From: Opitutales bacterium
GTDB taxonomy: Bacteria > Verrucomicrobiota > Verrucomicrobiia > Opitutales > Oceanipulchritudinaceae
DNA length: 52,738 nt
Direction of reading: 5' to 3'
NCBI GenBank assembly: GCA_020831485.1
Contig: JAFIGG010000018.1
Span: forward strand, 1-52,738
Shown here: piece by piece, positions 10,378 to 15,117 of the stretch
Layout of the letters: each line of letters starts with the position of its first letter
How positions within the stretch are numbered: the first letter of the stretch is position 1
Position numbers and translations under genes: made by a program
The notes under the pieces: generated by a model
Databases searched by the model: none
What the model saw: only the letters and a program-made list of their open reading frames with translations
Told to the model about the DNA's origin: nothing

Positions 10378-11046
10378 TCAGCCTTTGGGGCTTACCCAGA
10401 TCGATTCGGCGGCTTTGCCGCCCAAATGCATTTTTCTGCCGTCGGGTACGGTTTCCAGTTGATGGAGATCGGCGGTGGCATCGTGGTCCAGGACCCGGAT
10501 TGTACTTCCCGGTGTTAGTCCTGTGCGGTCGAGAAATTGGAGAAATCTGGCGTCCTGTTGTTTGATCTGGGCGATGCGGACGGTTTGACCTTTTTGGCAT
10601 TCGCTGAGTGCCTGGAGTTTACGGGCTTTGATTTCGCCCAGCCGTGTCGGTATGGGATCGCCGTGGGGATCGTAGGCTGGCCGTCCCAGGTATTCGTCCA
10701 TACGGTCGAGTACTTTATCCGAGATCGCGTGTTCGAGCGCTTCAGCTTCCTGATGGATTTCCGACCAATCGAGTTTCAGGGCTTCAACCAGAAACATCTC
10801 AACCACCCGGTGTTTGCGTAGCACCTTCAGTGCAAGCTGGTTGCCTTCTTCTGTCAGGGAAACCCCTTCGCGGGGAATGTAGTTGAGCCAGCCCGATCGG
10901 TCCATCGCCTTGACCATTGTGGTGGCCGTGCCTGGCACTACTTGCATACGTTCAGCGAGCTTGCCCATGGGAACGCGCTCGTTGGCCAATTCGTCGCTGA
11001 GGAGTAGAATCTGCTTGAGGTAGTTTTCTATCGTGATCGAAGCCAT
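10378..11046 (-). CDS. mntR: DtxR/MntR-family metal-dependent transcriptional regulator
   Basis: The 222-residue protein has the three DtxR-family parts: a winged helix (about 1-75) with recognition helix near GTATTMVKAMDR, a metal-binding dimerisation domain (about 76-140), and a C-terminal SH3/FeoA-like domain (about 148-222). Ligand positions match DtxR numbering: His79, Glu83, His98, Glu102, Glu105 and His106. Glu at 102, where iron-sensing DtxR has Cys, is the pattern of manganese-sensing members. It is divergent from the metal ABC transporter, with inverted repeats in the shared intergenic region, so it probably represses that operon when metal is plentiful. Metal specificity is inferred; the gene symbol is given by family. 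Confidence 0.85.
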   Translation of the reverse strand: MASITIENYLKQILLLSDELANERVPMGKLAERMQVVPGTATTMVKAMDRSGWLNYIPREGVSLTEEGNQLALKVLRKHRVVEMFLVEALKLDWSEIHQEAEALEHAISDKVLDRMDEYLGRPAYDPHGDPIPTRLGEIKARKLQALSECQKGQTVRIAQIKQQDARFLQFLDRTGLTPGSTIRVLDHDATADLHQLETVPDGRKMHLGGKAAESIWVSPKG

Positions 11047-11082: not shown

Positions 11083-11099
11083 TCAAAACATTATTTTGA
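11083..11099. promoter_or_regulatory. Inverted repeat TCAAAA-N5-TTTTGA, candidate metal-regulator operator
   Basis: Perfect six-base arms (11083-11088 and 11094-11099) flank a five-base spacer in the region between the divergent mntR and ABC transporter genes. It lies 37 bases upstream of the mntR start. A second related palindrome follows at 11103-11122, and both share the TCAAA/TTTGA half-site. A binding site for the adjacent DtxR-type regulator is the simplest reading. This is inference from position and symmetry. Confidence 0.5.
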
Positions 11100-11102
11100 A
11101 TA

Positions 11103-11122
11103 GTCAAAGTTAATCGTTTGAC
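11103..11122. promoter_or_regulatory. Inverted repeat GTCAAA-N8-TTTGAC overlapping a consensus -35 of the ABC operon
   Basis: Perfect six-base arms at 11103-11108 and 11117-11122. The right arm overlaps TTGACA at 11118-11123, an exact sigma-70 -35 element for the rightward ABC transporter operon; the possible -10 (TTGTTT at 11141-11146, 17-base spacing) is poor. A repressor bound here would block polymerase, which fits metal-dependent repression by the neighbouring regulator. Confidence 0.5.
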
Positions 11123-11153
11123 ATGTATTGCTATCTTGCTTTGTTTGGGCCCT

Positions 11154-12065
11154 ATGCGAATTTGGCTCATCTTTGTCGCTTTATTACTGCCTTCGTTTCT
11201 GCTGGCGGGGCCGGTGCGCGCGGTGGCTACGTCGACATTTGTTGCGGATCTGGTTCGTTCGGTCGGGGGCGAGGACGTTGAAGTGGTCGGATTGATTCCG
11301 CACGGCGTGGATCCACATATGTTCAAGCCAACGATCGCGGATGTGAATCACCTCATGCGGGCGGACGTTGTTTTTTTCAATGGTCTGGGCCTCGAGGGCC
11401 GCATGGCAGATGTTCTGCGGCGTCTGGAACGGCGTGGCACGCGGGCGGTAGCTGTGGCGGAATCGATTCCGACGGAATACTTGCTGCAGGATGAAGACAA
11501 TCCCAACCAGGCCGATCCCCATATCTGGTTTGATCCGCGACTTTGGGCACGGGCAGTGGACTCGGTGGTGCGGGTCTTGTCAGAGTTGGATGCATCGAAT
11601 GCCGAACACTTTACCGCTCGCGGGGAAGCCTTGAGCGCATCCTATGAATCCCTGCATGAATGGGCGGCCGCATCGCTGGCTAAGATTCCACCGGAGCGCC
11701 GGATATTGATTACCAGTCATGACGCCTTTCAATATTTTGGCCGTGCCTACGACCTTGAGGTGATCGGGGTGCAAGGCATCTCCACGGTAGGGGAGGCGGG
11801 CTTGTCCGACATCACCCGAATTGTGGACCGCGTTCGCGGGCAGTCCATTCCTGCGGTATTTGTTGAGACGAGTGTGTCCTCCGCGGCGGTTCGCCGTATC
11901 AGTCAGGATTCCGGTGTGCGCATCGGCGGTTCGCTGTATTCGGATTCCACTGGAACTCCGGGCGAGGTGCTGCACAGCCCAACGGGTATGCGCTACGATC
12001 CGAGCACGTATACCGGTGCTTTCCGCCACAACGTTTTAACCATTGTCGATGCTTTGGGCTTATGA
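11154..12065 (+). CDS. Metal (Mn/Zn/Fe) ABC transporter substrate-binding protein
   Basis: From the ATG at 11154 the protein is 303 residues with a clear signal peptide (MRIWLIFVALLLPSFLLAGP). A longer frame begins at 11118 but would put twelve extra residues before the signal and overlaps the -35 element. It is a cluster A-1 metal-binding protein of the TroA/MntC/YtgA type: HGVDPHMFKPT, NQADPHIWFDP and SHDAFQYFG supply the conserved His ligands, and a late Asp lies in SLYSDS. The His-rich loop of zinc-specific ZnuA proteins is absent, which favours manganese or iron. It acts in the periplasm and delivers metal to the permeases encoded downstream. The stop overlaps the ATPase start by four bases. 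Confidence 0.88.
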   Translation: MRIWLIFVALLLPSFLLAGPVRAVATSTFVADLVRSVGGEDVEVVGLIPHGVDPHMFKPTIADVNHLMRADVVFFNGLGLEGRMADVLRRLERRGTRAVAVAESIPTEYLLQDEDNPNQADPHIWFDPRLWARAVDSVVRVLSELDASNAEHFTARGEALSASYESLHEWAAASLAKIPPERRILITSHDAFQYFGRAYDLEVIGVQGISTVGEAGLSDITRIVDRVRGQSIPAVFVETSVSSAAVRRISQDSGVRIGGSLYSDSTGTPGEVLHSPTGMRYDPSTYTGAFRHNVLTIVDALGL

Positions 12066-12823
12066 AACCTGTTCTTGAAACCCATGACTTGACCGTGATC
12101 TACAGCCGCAAGCCGGTTTTGTATGGGGTCGATCTGACCGTGCATGCCGGATCCATTGTCGGCTTGCTGGGTCCGAACGGAGCGGGCAAGTCGACCTTTA
12201 TCAAAGCCTGCATGGGTTTGATCCCGCTGGAATCCGGATGGGTCGAGCTCTTTGGCCAGCGCGGCCGCAAGGCGATTCGGCGGGCGGGTTATGTGCCTCA
12301 GCGCGAATCCGTTGATTGGGACTTTCCGGTCAACGCACTCGATGTGGTGCTTATGGGGCGCTATGGAAAGCTCGGGCTTTTTCGCAGGCCCGGCAAAGCC
12401 GACCGTGAAATGGCGATGGATTGTTTGCGCATGGTCAATATGGAGGCCTATGCGGATCGGCAGATCGCCGCATTGTCAGGAGGTCAGCAGCAACGCATCT
12501 TTCTTGCCCGGGCCTTGGCACAGGAGACGGATCTGTATTTTCTGGACGAGCCATTTGTGGGCGTAGATGCGGCCACCGAGGCCGCCATAATCACGATTCT
12601 GCGCAAGATGCGGGATCAGGGGAAAACCTTGATTGTGGTGCACCACGACCTGACCACGGCAGCCCAGTATTTTGATCAACTGGTGCTTTTGAATATGCGG
12701 GTCATCGCGTCCGGGCCTACTCAGGAGGTTTTTACAGAAGAAAACCTGCACCGGGCCTACGGCGGACGTTTGACATTGCTGACTCAGGCCGCGAGCGAGC
12801 GGATCCAGCAGCGTTCCTCCTAA
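12062..12823 (+). CDS. Metal ABC transporter ATP-binding protein
   Basis: The 253-residue ATPase shows Walker A (GPNGAGKST), a Q-loop (YVPQRESVDWDFP), the signature LSGGQQQR and Walker B (LYFLDEPFVGVD), followed by the switch His in VVHHDL. The Q-loop followed by the DWDFP stretch is typical of the manganese/zinc/iron ABC subfamily (MntB, ZnuC, YtgB). It powers import through the two permeases downstream. It begins in an ATGA overlap with the substrate-binding gene and is followed 18 bases later by the permease-repressor fusion. Confidence 0.92.
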   Translation: MKPVLETHDLTVIYSRKPVLYGVDLTVHAGSIVGLLGPNGAGKSTFIKACMGLIPLESGWVELFGQRGRKAIRRAGYVPQRESVDWDFPVNALDVVLMGRYGKLGLFRRPGKADREMAMDCLRMVNMEAYADRQIAALSGGQQQRIFLARALAQETDLYFLDEPFVGVDAATEAAIITILRKMRDQGKTLIVVHHDLTTAAQYFDQLVLLNMRVIASGPTQEVFTEENLHRAYGGRLTLLTQAASERIQQRSS

Positions 12824-12841: not shown

Positions 12842-14188
12842 ATGGAAGTCTTCTGGGACCAGACCCTTCGTTTTTTTAGCTTCGGTGATCCGATCGTGCG
12901 GGTTGCCGTGGCGGGCTGCCTTTTGCTCGGCCTTGCCTGCGGCTTGATGGGGAGTTTTATCATGGTGCGGCGCCTGTCGTTGTTTGGGGATACCCTTTCG
13001 CACGCGGTGCTGCCTGGAGTAGCGATGGGCTTTATCTGGAACCTCAGCAAGGATCCGGTGGCCATCCTAATAGGTGCGGTATTGGCCGGCTATCTCGGCG
13101 TCATGCTGGTTCGCTGGTTGACGGCTACAACCCGTTTAAAGGAAGACGCCGCAATGGGCATGGTGCTTGCCGGGTTTTATGGGCTTGGAGTGTGCCTGCT
13201 GACCTTTGTGCAGCGGCAGGCCGTGGGCGATATGGCAGGGCTGGACAAGATGTTGTTTGGTCAGGCTTCAGCGTTGACCGGAACGGATATTCAAGTGTTG
13301 GCTGTGGTTTCCGGGGTTGCCTTGGCTCTTGTTGCGGTCTTTTACAAAGAGTTTCTAGTCATCAGTTTTAACGAAACCTTTGCCCGGGTTTCGGGTATTC
13401 CAGTTCGCTGGTTCAATGGATTGTTTTTCCTGCTACTGTCGTTTGCCATCGTTGCCTCGCTGCAGGCTGTCGGGGTTGTCTTGGTGTCCGCAATGCTGAT
13501 TACACCAGCGGCGACGGCCTATATGTTGACCGACCGTATGCACCGATTGATCGGCCTTGCCTGTGTTTTTGGGATGCTTGCCGGCCTGATTGGGTGCTAT
13601 CTTTCATTCCTCGGTGCCGGCTTGCCGACGGGGCCTTTCATCGTTCTGGTGTCGAGCCTGGGTTTTATTGCGGCATGGTTCTTCAGTCCCCGCTACGGAT
13701 GGGTATTGGAAAAGCTTCGAAGAATCAGCCGCAGGCGCCGCATGGCGCTCGAAAACACTCTGGCTTCCATTTACCGCTTTCGTGAAGGGGAGGGCCATGC
13801 GGAGACCGTGGCCCTGTCCTTGCTGGGCCTTTCCCGTCACCGCAACGAATCCCTCGAAGAAGTCGAATCCCGCCTCAAGCGCCTGCAAGCCGAGGGTTTT
13901 GCCAAGCTTGTTCCGTCGCCACGGACCGCTGCCCTGGAGCACTGTCAGGTGGTCCTCACCGCCAAAGGCGCGCGGCGGGCCCGCACACTGATTCGCAATC
14001 ACCGCCTTTGGGAACTTTACCTGAATCGGGCGGCTGACTACGCCGATGACCATGTGCATGACGATGCCGAATTGATGGAACACTATTTGAGCGAAGGGCT
14101 GGTCGACCGTCTCGACCAGCGCCTCGACTATCCAAGGGTCGATCCGCATGGGCGCACGATTCCCTCGAAGGAGGAGGCACGCCAATGA
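12842..14188 (+). CDS. Metal ABC permease fused to a DtxR-type repressor domain (YtgCR-like)
   Basis: Residues 1 to about 285 form an ABC-3 family permease with eight or nine membrane helices (MGSFIMVRRLSLFGDTLSHA is the family's loop). A basic linker (RRISRRRR) follows, and residues 301-448 form a DtxR-type winged helix plus metal-binding dimerisation domain without the SH3 domain. Ligand positions offset by 308 from DtxR are all kept: His387, Glu391, His406, Glu410, Glu413 and His414. The same fusion exists in Chlamydia as YtgCR, where the repressor part is released by cleavage and represses its own operon. Met301 could also serve as an internal start, but no ribosome binding site is seen before it. 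Overlaps the next permease by four bases. Confidence 0.9.
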   Translation: MEVFWDQTLRFFSFGDPIVRVAVAGCLLLGLACGLMGSFIMVRRLSLFGDTLSHAVLPGVAMGFIWNLSKDPVAILIGAVLAGYLGVMLVRWLTATTRLKEDAAMGMVLAGFYGLGVCLLTFVQRQAVGDMAGLDKMLFGQASALTGTDIQVLAVVSGVALALVAVFYKEFLVISFNETFARVSGIPVRWFNGLFFLLLSFAIVASLQAVGVVLVSAMLITPAATAYMLTDRMHRLIGLACVFGMLAGLIGCYLSFLGAGLPTGPFIVLVSSLGFIAAWFFSPRYGWVLEKLRRISRRRRMALENTLASIYRFREGEGHAETVALSLLGLSRHRNESLEEVESRLKRLQAEGFAKLVPSPRTAALEHCQVVLTAKGARRARTLIRNHRLWELYLNRAADYADDHVHDDAELMEHYLSEGLVDRLDQRLDYPRVDPHGRTIPSKEEARQ

Positions 14189-15117
14189 GCGCGAGATTGG
14201 AAATACCGGCATTTGACTGGCTACGGGTCGTGGTTGAGCCATGGGCTTTGTATCCGGAAACCACGATCTGGATCGTGTTGATGGGCTGGCTGGTTTCGCT
14301 AGTCTGCGGCGCGGTTGGGCTGTTTTTGATCCTGCGACGAATGGCCATGACAGGGGATGCCATCAGTCACAGCGTTCTTCCCGGTCTGGTGTTGGCGTTT
14401 TTGTGGACAGCCTCACGCGCGACCTTGCCGATGATGCTCGGGGCCCTGATTGCCGGAGTGCTGTCAGTGATTCTGATTGAATGGATTCACCGCAGTTCCA
14501 GGGTGAAACCGGATGCCGCCATGGGCATTGTTTTTTCGCTGTTTTTTGCGGTCGGGGTGATTTTGGTGACAGCCTACGCAGATCACATCGACCTCGATGC
14601 CGACTGTGTGCTCTACGGCGAAATTGCCTATGTGCCCCTTGAGCCAATGTGGGCCCTTGCAGGAATTGAGCTTGGGCCGGCTCCAGTGATGCGAATGGCG
14701 ATGGTCGGCCTGATCGTGGCGGGGCTTGGATTTCTCTTTTTCAAGGAGTTGATCACCACCAGCTTTGATCCGGTGCTGGCCGCTTCGCTGGGCTTATCAC
14801 CCAAGGCTTTTCATTATGGCCTGATGATTGTGCTGTCCGTTGTGATCGTCAGCTCCTTCGAGGCCGTTGGCGCCATTCTGGTGGTCGCCATGCTGATATT
14901 TCCCGGTGCGACTGCCTTGTTGCTGACGCACCGGCTTAGACTCGCACTGGCCTTGTTGCCTATGATAGCCGCTCTGCACAGTCTGCTCGGTTATCACTTG
15001 GCAGTCTGGTTCGATGTCACCGTAGCTGGCAGCATGGCCGTAGCCGCGGGCGGTCTGCTCGCGATTGCCTGGGCTGTATACTGTATTTGGGCGCGGGTCG
15101 CGCGCTCGAGCCACTAA
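14185..15117 (+). CDS. Metal ABC transporter, second permease
   Basis: The 310-residue protein is a second ABC-3 family permease with about nine membrane helices. It contains LILRRMAMTGDAISHSVLPG, the loop that contacts the ATPase, and the late pattern FEAVGAILVVAMLIFPGATA. It carries no extra domain. With the fused permease it would form the heterodimeric channel, as YtgC and YtgD do in Chlamydia or TroC and TroD in Treponema. It starts in an ATGA overlap with the fusion gene. Its stop codon overlaps the convergent purB stop by two bases. Confidence 0.92.
   Translation: MSARLEIPAFDWLRVVVEPWALYPETTIWIVLMGWLVSLVCGAVGLFLILRRMAMTGDAISHSVLPGLVLAFLWTASRATLPMMLGALIAGVLSVILIEWIHRSSRVKPDAAMGIVFSLFFAVGVILVTAYADHIDLDADCVLYGEIAYVPLEPMWALAGIELGPAPVMRMAMVGLIVAGLGFLFFKELITTSFDPVLAASLGLSPKAFHYGLMIVLSVVIVSSFEAVGAILVVAMLIFPGATALLLTHRLRLALALLPMIAALHSLLGYHLAVWFDVTVAGSMAVAAGGLLAIAWAVYCIWARVARSSH

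Follow-up and report, generated by a model that had tools for sequence, protein, structure and literature searches.

The closest described counterpart of the locus reported here is YtgCR (CT069) of Chlamydia, a product of the ytgABCD operon in which an ABC-3 permease carries a C-terminal DtxR-like domain with conserved metal-coordinating residues (PMC5599777). Its repressor part, YtgR, is reported to be cleaved and to bind DNA in an iron-dependent manner (PMC5599777, PMC7755916, PMC6504234); no protease site is known (PMC5599777). The permease-DtxR fusion itself is already known, the relevant passage of a review (PMC5599777, citing Thompson 2012) giving orthologous fusions in 11 phyla. The manganese importers PsaBC and MntBC have ABC-3 permeases; Asp46 and His50 of PsaC coordinate Mn (PMC11779740), and PsaC, with chains of ~270–290 residues, has no DtxR tail. 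The importers MetNI and ModABC provide the precedent for trans-inhibition (PMC10710835): they carry an extra cytoplasmic ligand-binding C-terminal domain on the ATPase subunit.

The window (the whole stretch of DNA analysed, 52,738 nucleotides) is contig C68 of a 3.86-Mb genome (G000). A continuous frame on its forward strand, 12842–14188, encodes a protein of 448 residues in which Pfam recognises an ABC-3 permease domain (PF00950) at residues 18–281 (E 2.6e-66) and a DtxR-type metal-binding and dimerisation domain (PF02742, Fe_dep_repr_C) at residues 373–441 (E 1.4e-24; nucleotides 13958–14164). A sequence-only reading of this DNA had proposed a permease-DtxR fusion in the YtgCR layout, and this is confirmed: as in Chlamydia, both domains lie in one ORF, within an operon that also encodes a binding protein, an ATPase and a further permease, and the metal-coordinating residues of the tail are conserved. 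Among named relatives, the protein of the Opitutales MAG L015 is closest to the fused protein, at 53% identity.

The operon starts with a ZnuA/TroA-type metal-binding protein (11118–12065, forward strand; PF01297, E 2.1e-70) and continues with an ABC ATPase (12062–12823, forward; PF00005), for which the NCBIfam matches are led by Mn/Fe ATP-binding models. The second permease gene, downstream of the fusion (14185–15117, forward; PF00950, E 3.8e-49), has no tail; its ATG overlaps the stop codon of the fused gene and is preceded by a strong Shine-Dalgarno sequence (GGAGGAGG). The permease part of the fusion (residues 1–283, nucleotides 12842–13690, forward) shares the fold of PsaC (7kyp, TMt 0.90), and its transmembrane Asp50 and His54, invariant in 18/18 relatives, correspond by motif to PsaC Asp46 and His50, as in importers of the PsaBC/MntBC kind. 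Among Mn, Fe and Zn, the matches of the ATPase and the permease lean toward Mn or Fe as the metal carried.

Divergent from the operon, on the reverse strand at 10378–11046, lies a stand-alone repressor of the MntR/DtxR family with an FeoA domain (PF01325, E 9.2e-11; PF02742, E 1.1e-30; FeoA, E 1.3e-11), so that the second regulator claimed by the sequence-only reading is also present. Its helix-turn-helix (HTH) is complete in alignment, with VPGTATT in the recognition helix. Repeats previously pointed out at 11083–11122 resolve into two palindromes without strand assignment, TCAAAA-N5-TTTTGA at 11083–11099 and TCAAA-N8-TTTGA at 11104–11121, both candidate MntR operators. If the ORF of the binding protein is taken to begin at TTG 11118, it runs across part of the second palindrome; the more likely start is ATG 11154, which opens a signal-peptide-like sequence 3' of both palindromes.

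The motif class recurs 5' of homologous operons. TCAAA-N(5–10)-TTTGA, with at most one mismatch, was found 5' of the binding-protein gene at 22/41 other loci, and since the motif was derived from the window, only these other loci count as evidence. In total, 31 hits were observed against 3.0 expected from mononucleotide shuffles, a count that includes the two of the window and takes overlapping spacings separately. In G000, TCAAA-N8-TTTGA was counted at eight sites and its reversed control at two; further MntR targets may lie at the seven sites besides that of the window. A third DtxR-family protein of this genome (G000:C119:9096-9278; L143:3579-4034) is short and has a canonical-looking HTH.

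First-shell metal positions of the tail were assigned from sequence and from structural superposition as Asn305, His387, Glu391, His406, Glu410, Glu413 and His414. The last six correspond to DtxR 79, 83, 98, 102, 105 and 106; among 18 close relatives (window included), positions 387, 391, 406, 413 and 414 are identical in 18/18 and position 410 is Glu in 16/18, with Asp in the other two. The earlier statement that all metal-ligand positions were kept thus stands for the six residues of the C-terminal half, and the constant offset of 308 from DtxR applies to that half as well. It does not extend to helix 1, where the offset is 295 (superposition numbering: model residue 15 = residue 298 = DtxR 3) and the seventh ligand, Met10 in DtxR and Asp8 in BsMntR, is replaced by Asn305 (codon 13754–13756), Asn or Asp being found at this position in 18/18. 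The stand-alone MntR of the window likewise has Asn at position 10, its ligands being Asn8, His79, Glu83, His98, Glu102, Glu105 and His106; the Asn305-containing site of the tail is therefore probably functional, even though position 10 is not kept relative to DtxR. Because this seven-position ligand set is common to both proteins, they may sense the same metal, as the sequence-only reading had supposed. The absence of BsMntR Glu11 was considered as a sign of lost metal binding and dropped, stand-alone MntRs at these loci also carrying Lys there.

More distant tails (type B) have His at position 10 in 21/24 and mostly Asp at positions 98 and 102; type C tails, which are those of second permeases, have Asp at position 10 and otherwise standard ligands. 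Since position 10 is nearly always occupied by a possible metal ligand, the alignments suggest that helix 1 is still coupled to the dimerisation domain through metal. Type B tails may differ in metal or in function.

The fold of the tail was examined in predicted structures. The AlphaFold model of the tail (pLDDT 83.8) retains the two-domain DtxR fold including the winged helix and superposes on DtxR (1bi2_B) with Z 19.2 and 1.8 A over 137 residues; it was built from an alignment of five sequences, and the two true MntRs among these may have favoured this fold. In the model of the full-length protein (pLDDT 76.6, low around 400–416) the permease part matches PsaC. The claim that residues 301–448 reproduce DtxR therefore holds for the predicted fold and fails for the HTH at the level of sequence. 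The winged-helix region (residues 301–372, nucleotides 13742–13957, forward) has drifted, its DNA-reading sequence is unconserved, and the Pfam scan of the fused protein of the window gave no match to PF01325, the DNA-binding domain of DtxR/MntR regulators. Sequence searches of solved structures gave best matches that align to the metal half only.

Between permease and tail lies a basic linker (residues 284–300, nucleotides 13691–13741, forward), for which the sequence-only reading had named an RRISRRRR stretch as a release point and Met301 as a restart. The basic character is conserved (5–8 K/R in 18/18 relatives). It is what the positive-inside rule alone would give; residues 285–317 (model residues 2–34) are predicted as one continuous helix that runs from the linker into tail helix 1, and no mark of a cleavage site was found in the sequence of the fused protein. 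Internal restart at Met301 was rejected: Met is present in 1/18 relatives, and the codon is not preceded by a Shine-Dalgarno-like sequence.

Loss of a recognisable DNA-binding domain is general among the fused proteins scanned. Of 68 such proteins, from the phylum of the window and that of the planctomycete MAG L016, 67 are distinct (one protein occurring in two alignments was counted once); PF00950 and PF02742 were matched in all 67 and PF01325 in none (0/67), whereas stand-alone MntRs matched both PF01325 and PF02742 in 7/7. Pairwise identities of the HTH and the dimerisation domain are 0.55 and 0.64 in stand-alone MntRs (n = 37, one FeoB-associated protein left out; ratio 0.86, 95% 0.83–0.91); 0.30 and 0.64 in fused type A proteins, the type of the window (ratio 0.46, 0.42–0.51); 0.33 and 0.64 in type B (ratio 0.52); and 0.20 and 0.50 in type C (ratio 0.41). 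In a same-genome control, the HTH is less conserved in the fused than in the stand-alone protein in 16/16 genome pairs, which share genomes and are not independent. Type A dimerisation domains in these pairs are as conserved as their stand-alone counterparts (0.67 vs 0.66); the contrast is weaker in type B (fused vs stand-alone, HTH 0.67 vs 0.79, dimerisation domain 0.88 vs 0.96).

The drift reaches the residues that read DNA. At the N-terminus of the recognition helix (DtxR 37–43), stand-alone proteins have VPGTATT with an identity of 0.66 and an acidic residue in 5%; type A tails have an identity of 0.20 and an acidic residue in 78%, the window reading SLEEVES. Type B tails have a basic, partly conserved RSWS helix. 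HTH length hardly varies among stand-alone proteins and varies among fused ones: the spacing between ligand 10 and His79 is 69–72 residues in the former, and values of 57 (L094) and 58 (L192) occur among the latter, these two proteins missing ~13 residues inside the HTH with the metal ligands spared. A single value of 127, probably produced by a pattern mismatch, was disregarded. Plain pseudogene decay of the tail was rejected: the dimerisation domain equals that of stand-alone MntR in conservation, and the HTH region shows dN/dS values below 1 (0.19–0.37 in 5/6 computable pairs and 0.73 in the closest pair, with dS often saturated), which indicates that this region is not free of constraint. 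Compared with the DtxR/MntR family (DtxR, IdeR, BsMntR, DR2539, ScaR/SloR), the tail of the window thus shares the predicted fold and ligand positions 79, 83, 98, 102, 105 and 106; it differs in its unconserved recognition helix and wing, in Asn at position 10, in the lack of an FeoA/SH3 domain and in its fusion to a permease.

These data bear on the main rival explanation, a YtgCR-like repressor that is proteolytically released or acts while tethered, its winged helix being diverged and still working, with a DNA target of its own or as a helper of MntR. Gene order and fusion are those of ytgABCD, the winged-helix fold is predicted to be intact, the published behaviour of YtgR is that of a DNA-binding repressor, and fast-evolving recognition helices can also reflect changing targets. 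Against this stand the missing PF01325 matches, the deletions in the HTH, the acidic residues at contact positions, the unconserved Met301 and the linker predicted as helical. Even in three type A pairs of close relatives the recognition helix is unconserved (identity 0.46–0.54, compared with 0.82–0.86 for the dimerisation domain). A full MntR is moreover already there, and conservation extends to the operator class but not to the reading helix of the tail; an operator that is conserved calls for a reader that is conserved too, and of the two candidates the stand-alone protein alone has such a helix. Judged by its published description, YtgCR differs from the fused protein in that YtgR is cleaved and DNA-binding, while Pfam does not recognise a DNA-binding domain in the tail of the window, the operon has a complete MntR beside it, and some relatives are tailed on both permeases. 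Taken together, the sequence evidence lowers the probability of a YtgR-like repressor, which is in our judgement unlikely. The picture of a repressor awaiting release, as drawn by the sequence-only reading, was accordingly not upheld: HTH decay, which that reading had itself named as counting against it, is found at sequence level in the 0/67 vs 7/7 PF01325 matches, the type A and stand-alone ratios and the 16 genome pairs.

The fusion is widespread. Matches to the fused protein at E <= 1e-50 were obtained in 51/387 genomes of the phylum of the window and in 33/149 of the phylum of L016, and nearly all extend into the tail, to residue 417 or beyond; an assembly artefact or a frameshift as the source of the fusion was rejected on these grounds. 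No relative was found in the viral contigs searched, and the plasmid matches listed are all annotated as ordinary metal-dependent regulators. At seven loci (L080, L085, L088, L092, L093, L094, L139) both permeases carry tails; two adjacent full-length matches in each of G534, G540 and G580, of the planctomycete phylum, suggest the same arrangement. A separate DtxR-family gene was present in 14/14 fused genomes inspected singly. Several of the genomes whose loci were compared for palindromes (L097–L100, L111) have their MntR away from the operon. In a tree of 101 domains, a branch with support 99/97 separates the 48 permease tails from stand-alone MntRs and FeoB-associated proteins.

Separate DtxR-family genes in all genomes inspected, a dimerisation domain and ligand set common to both proteins, and a lost DNA-reading function that would suit a decoy partner would all agree with a tail that serves as a membrane dock for the stand-alone MntR, where pairing of the dimerisation domains would let the importer sequester the repressor or set it free (cf. 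MalK-MalT). We consider such docking very improbable: in many genomes the partner would be a short DtxR protein of 150–180 aa with no room for FeoA, or the product of a distant gene, and the tails group apart from the stand-alone MntRs in the tree. A tail that does no more than accept or buffer metal, or serve assembly, where the permease opens to the cytoplasm, with no regulatory output, would account for conserved metal ligands beside unconserved DNA reading. It is likewise improbable, given that the helix 1 ligand is kept as Asn, His or Asp throughout types A, B and C; the coupling of helix 1 to the dimerisation domain that this implies would be needless for a pure buffer.

The observed fusion, kept ligand set, unconserved recognition helix, separate DtxR-family genes and recurring operator-like palindromes favour a metal-binding, dimerising tail that does not read DNA. 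The explanation that we prefer, and for which we see about an even balance of probability, is that the tail is a metal-sensing dimerisation module, derived from DtxR/MntR, that acts on the importer and does not specifically read DNA, the operator being read by the stand-alone MntR. In the models, a rigid helix connects the last transmembrane helix to tail helix 1, which bears Asn305, and the remaining ligands belong to the dimerisation domain. At high cytoplasmic Mn2+ or Fe2+, metal would bridge helix 1 and the dimerisation domain, the bridged tails would dimerise, and the permease would be held in a non-transporting state, a trans-inhibition by analogy with MetNI and ModBC; the stand-alone MntR would repress the operon at the 11083–11121 palindromes. 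The transport-regulating step is inferred from the position of the tail, from the retained coupling of helix 1 and dimerisation domain, and from MetNI and ModABC. By position and ligand residues, the tail of the window resembles the extra domains of these two, each being a C-terminal addition on the cytoplasmic side of an importer, with a site for the ligand imported; it differs in its fold and in being placed on the permease, and inhibition, shown for them, is for the tail a supposition. Its sign (inhibition, not activation) is a guess in line with MetNI/ModABC, and its partner is equally presumed: as the window has a tail on only one of two permeases, a tail-tail dimer would need a permease homodimer, two transporters or some other partner, while tails on both permeases, as at the seven loci, would permit dimerisation within one transporter.

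Several points weigh against the importer-side sensor. The predicted fold is still that of a complete winged helix; the mostly low HTH dN/dS values indicate that some constraint remains; and YtgR, the only studied relative in this layout, binds DNA (PMC5599777, PMC6504234). The basic RSWS helix of type B could bind nucleic acid and is a real reason for caution.

DtxR-like domains also occur beside other importers. Proteins of ~320–375 aa that have two FeoA domains C-terminal to a DtxR-like domain are encoded beside an ORF bearing the FeoB G1 motif (L127:3802-4794, L128:3205-4299, L129, L130, L131, L132, L133, L134, L138, L140:3134-4180, L146:3529-4569), and 8/8 of those scanned had no PF01325 match. 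In L128 and L027 (Melioribacteraceae) the protein has an N-terminal TM-like helix and its gene lies 3' of a complete mntR. In genome G402 (L141:2000-4300, reverse strand), one open frame of 767 residues holds a DtxR-like domain that does not match PF01325, together with two FeoA domains and an Nramp/MntH transporter. PgMntR of Porphyromonas gingivalis, a DtxR protein with twin FeoA domains from the feoB2 operon, has the same domain order as the FeoB-associated proteins; it differs in having a recognised DNA-binding domain and binds its own promoter (PMC4805248). It is conceivable, with a probability that we put somewhat short of even, that DtxR-family sensors were turned at least twice into non-DNA-binding importer modules, as tails on one or both ABC-3 permeases and as DtxR-like/FeoA-FeoA proteins beside FeoB or fused to Nramp, and that together they make up a class of domains for post-translational metal feedback, built on a repressor fold. 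In the literature, of which coverage was incomplete, no account was found of lost DNA reading in the tails, of double-permease tails or of the FeoB- and Nramp-associated versions, a weak sign that these are new.

The usual explanation of permease-DtxR fusions, as repressors that need to be freed by cleavage, is drawn from the one studied case, Chlamydia YtgCR. Should most tails be unable to read DNA, it would not be transferable, and names such as 'iron dependent repressor' would mislead. The importer-side sensor, if true, would give cytoplasmic metal a direct route to shut off manganese or iron import, and a sensor fold would have moved from the control of genes to the control of a transporter.
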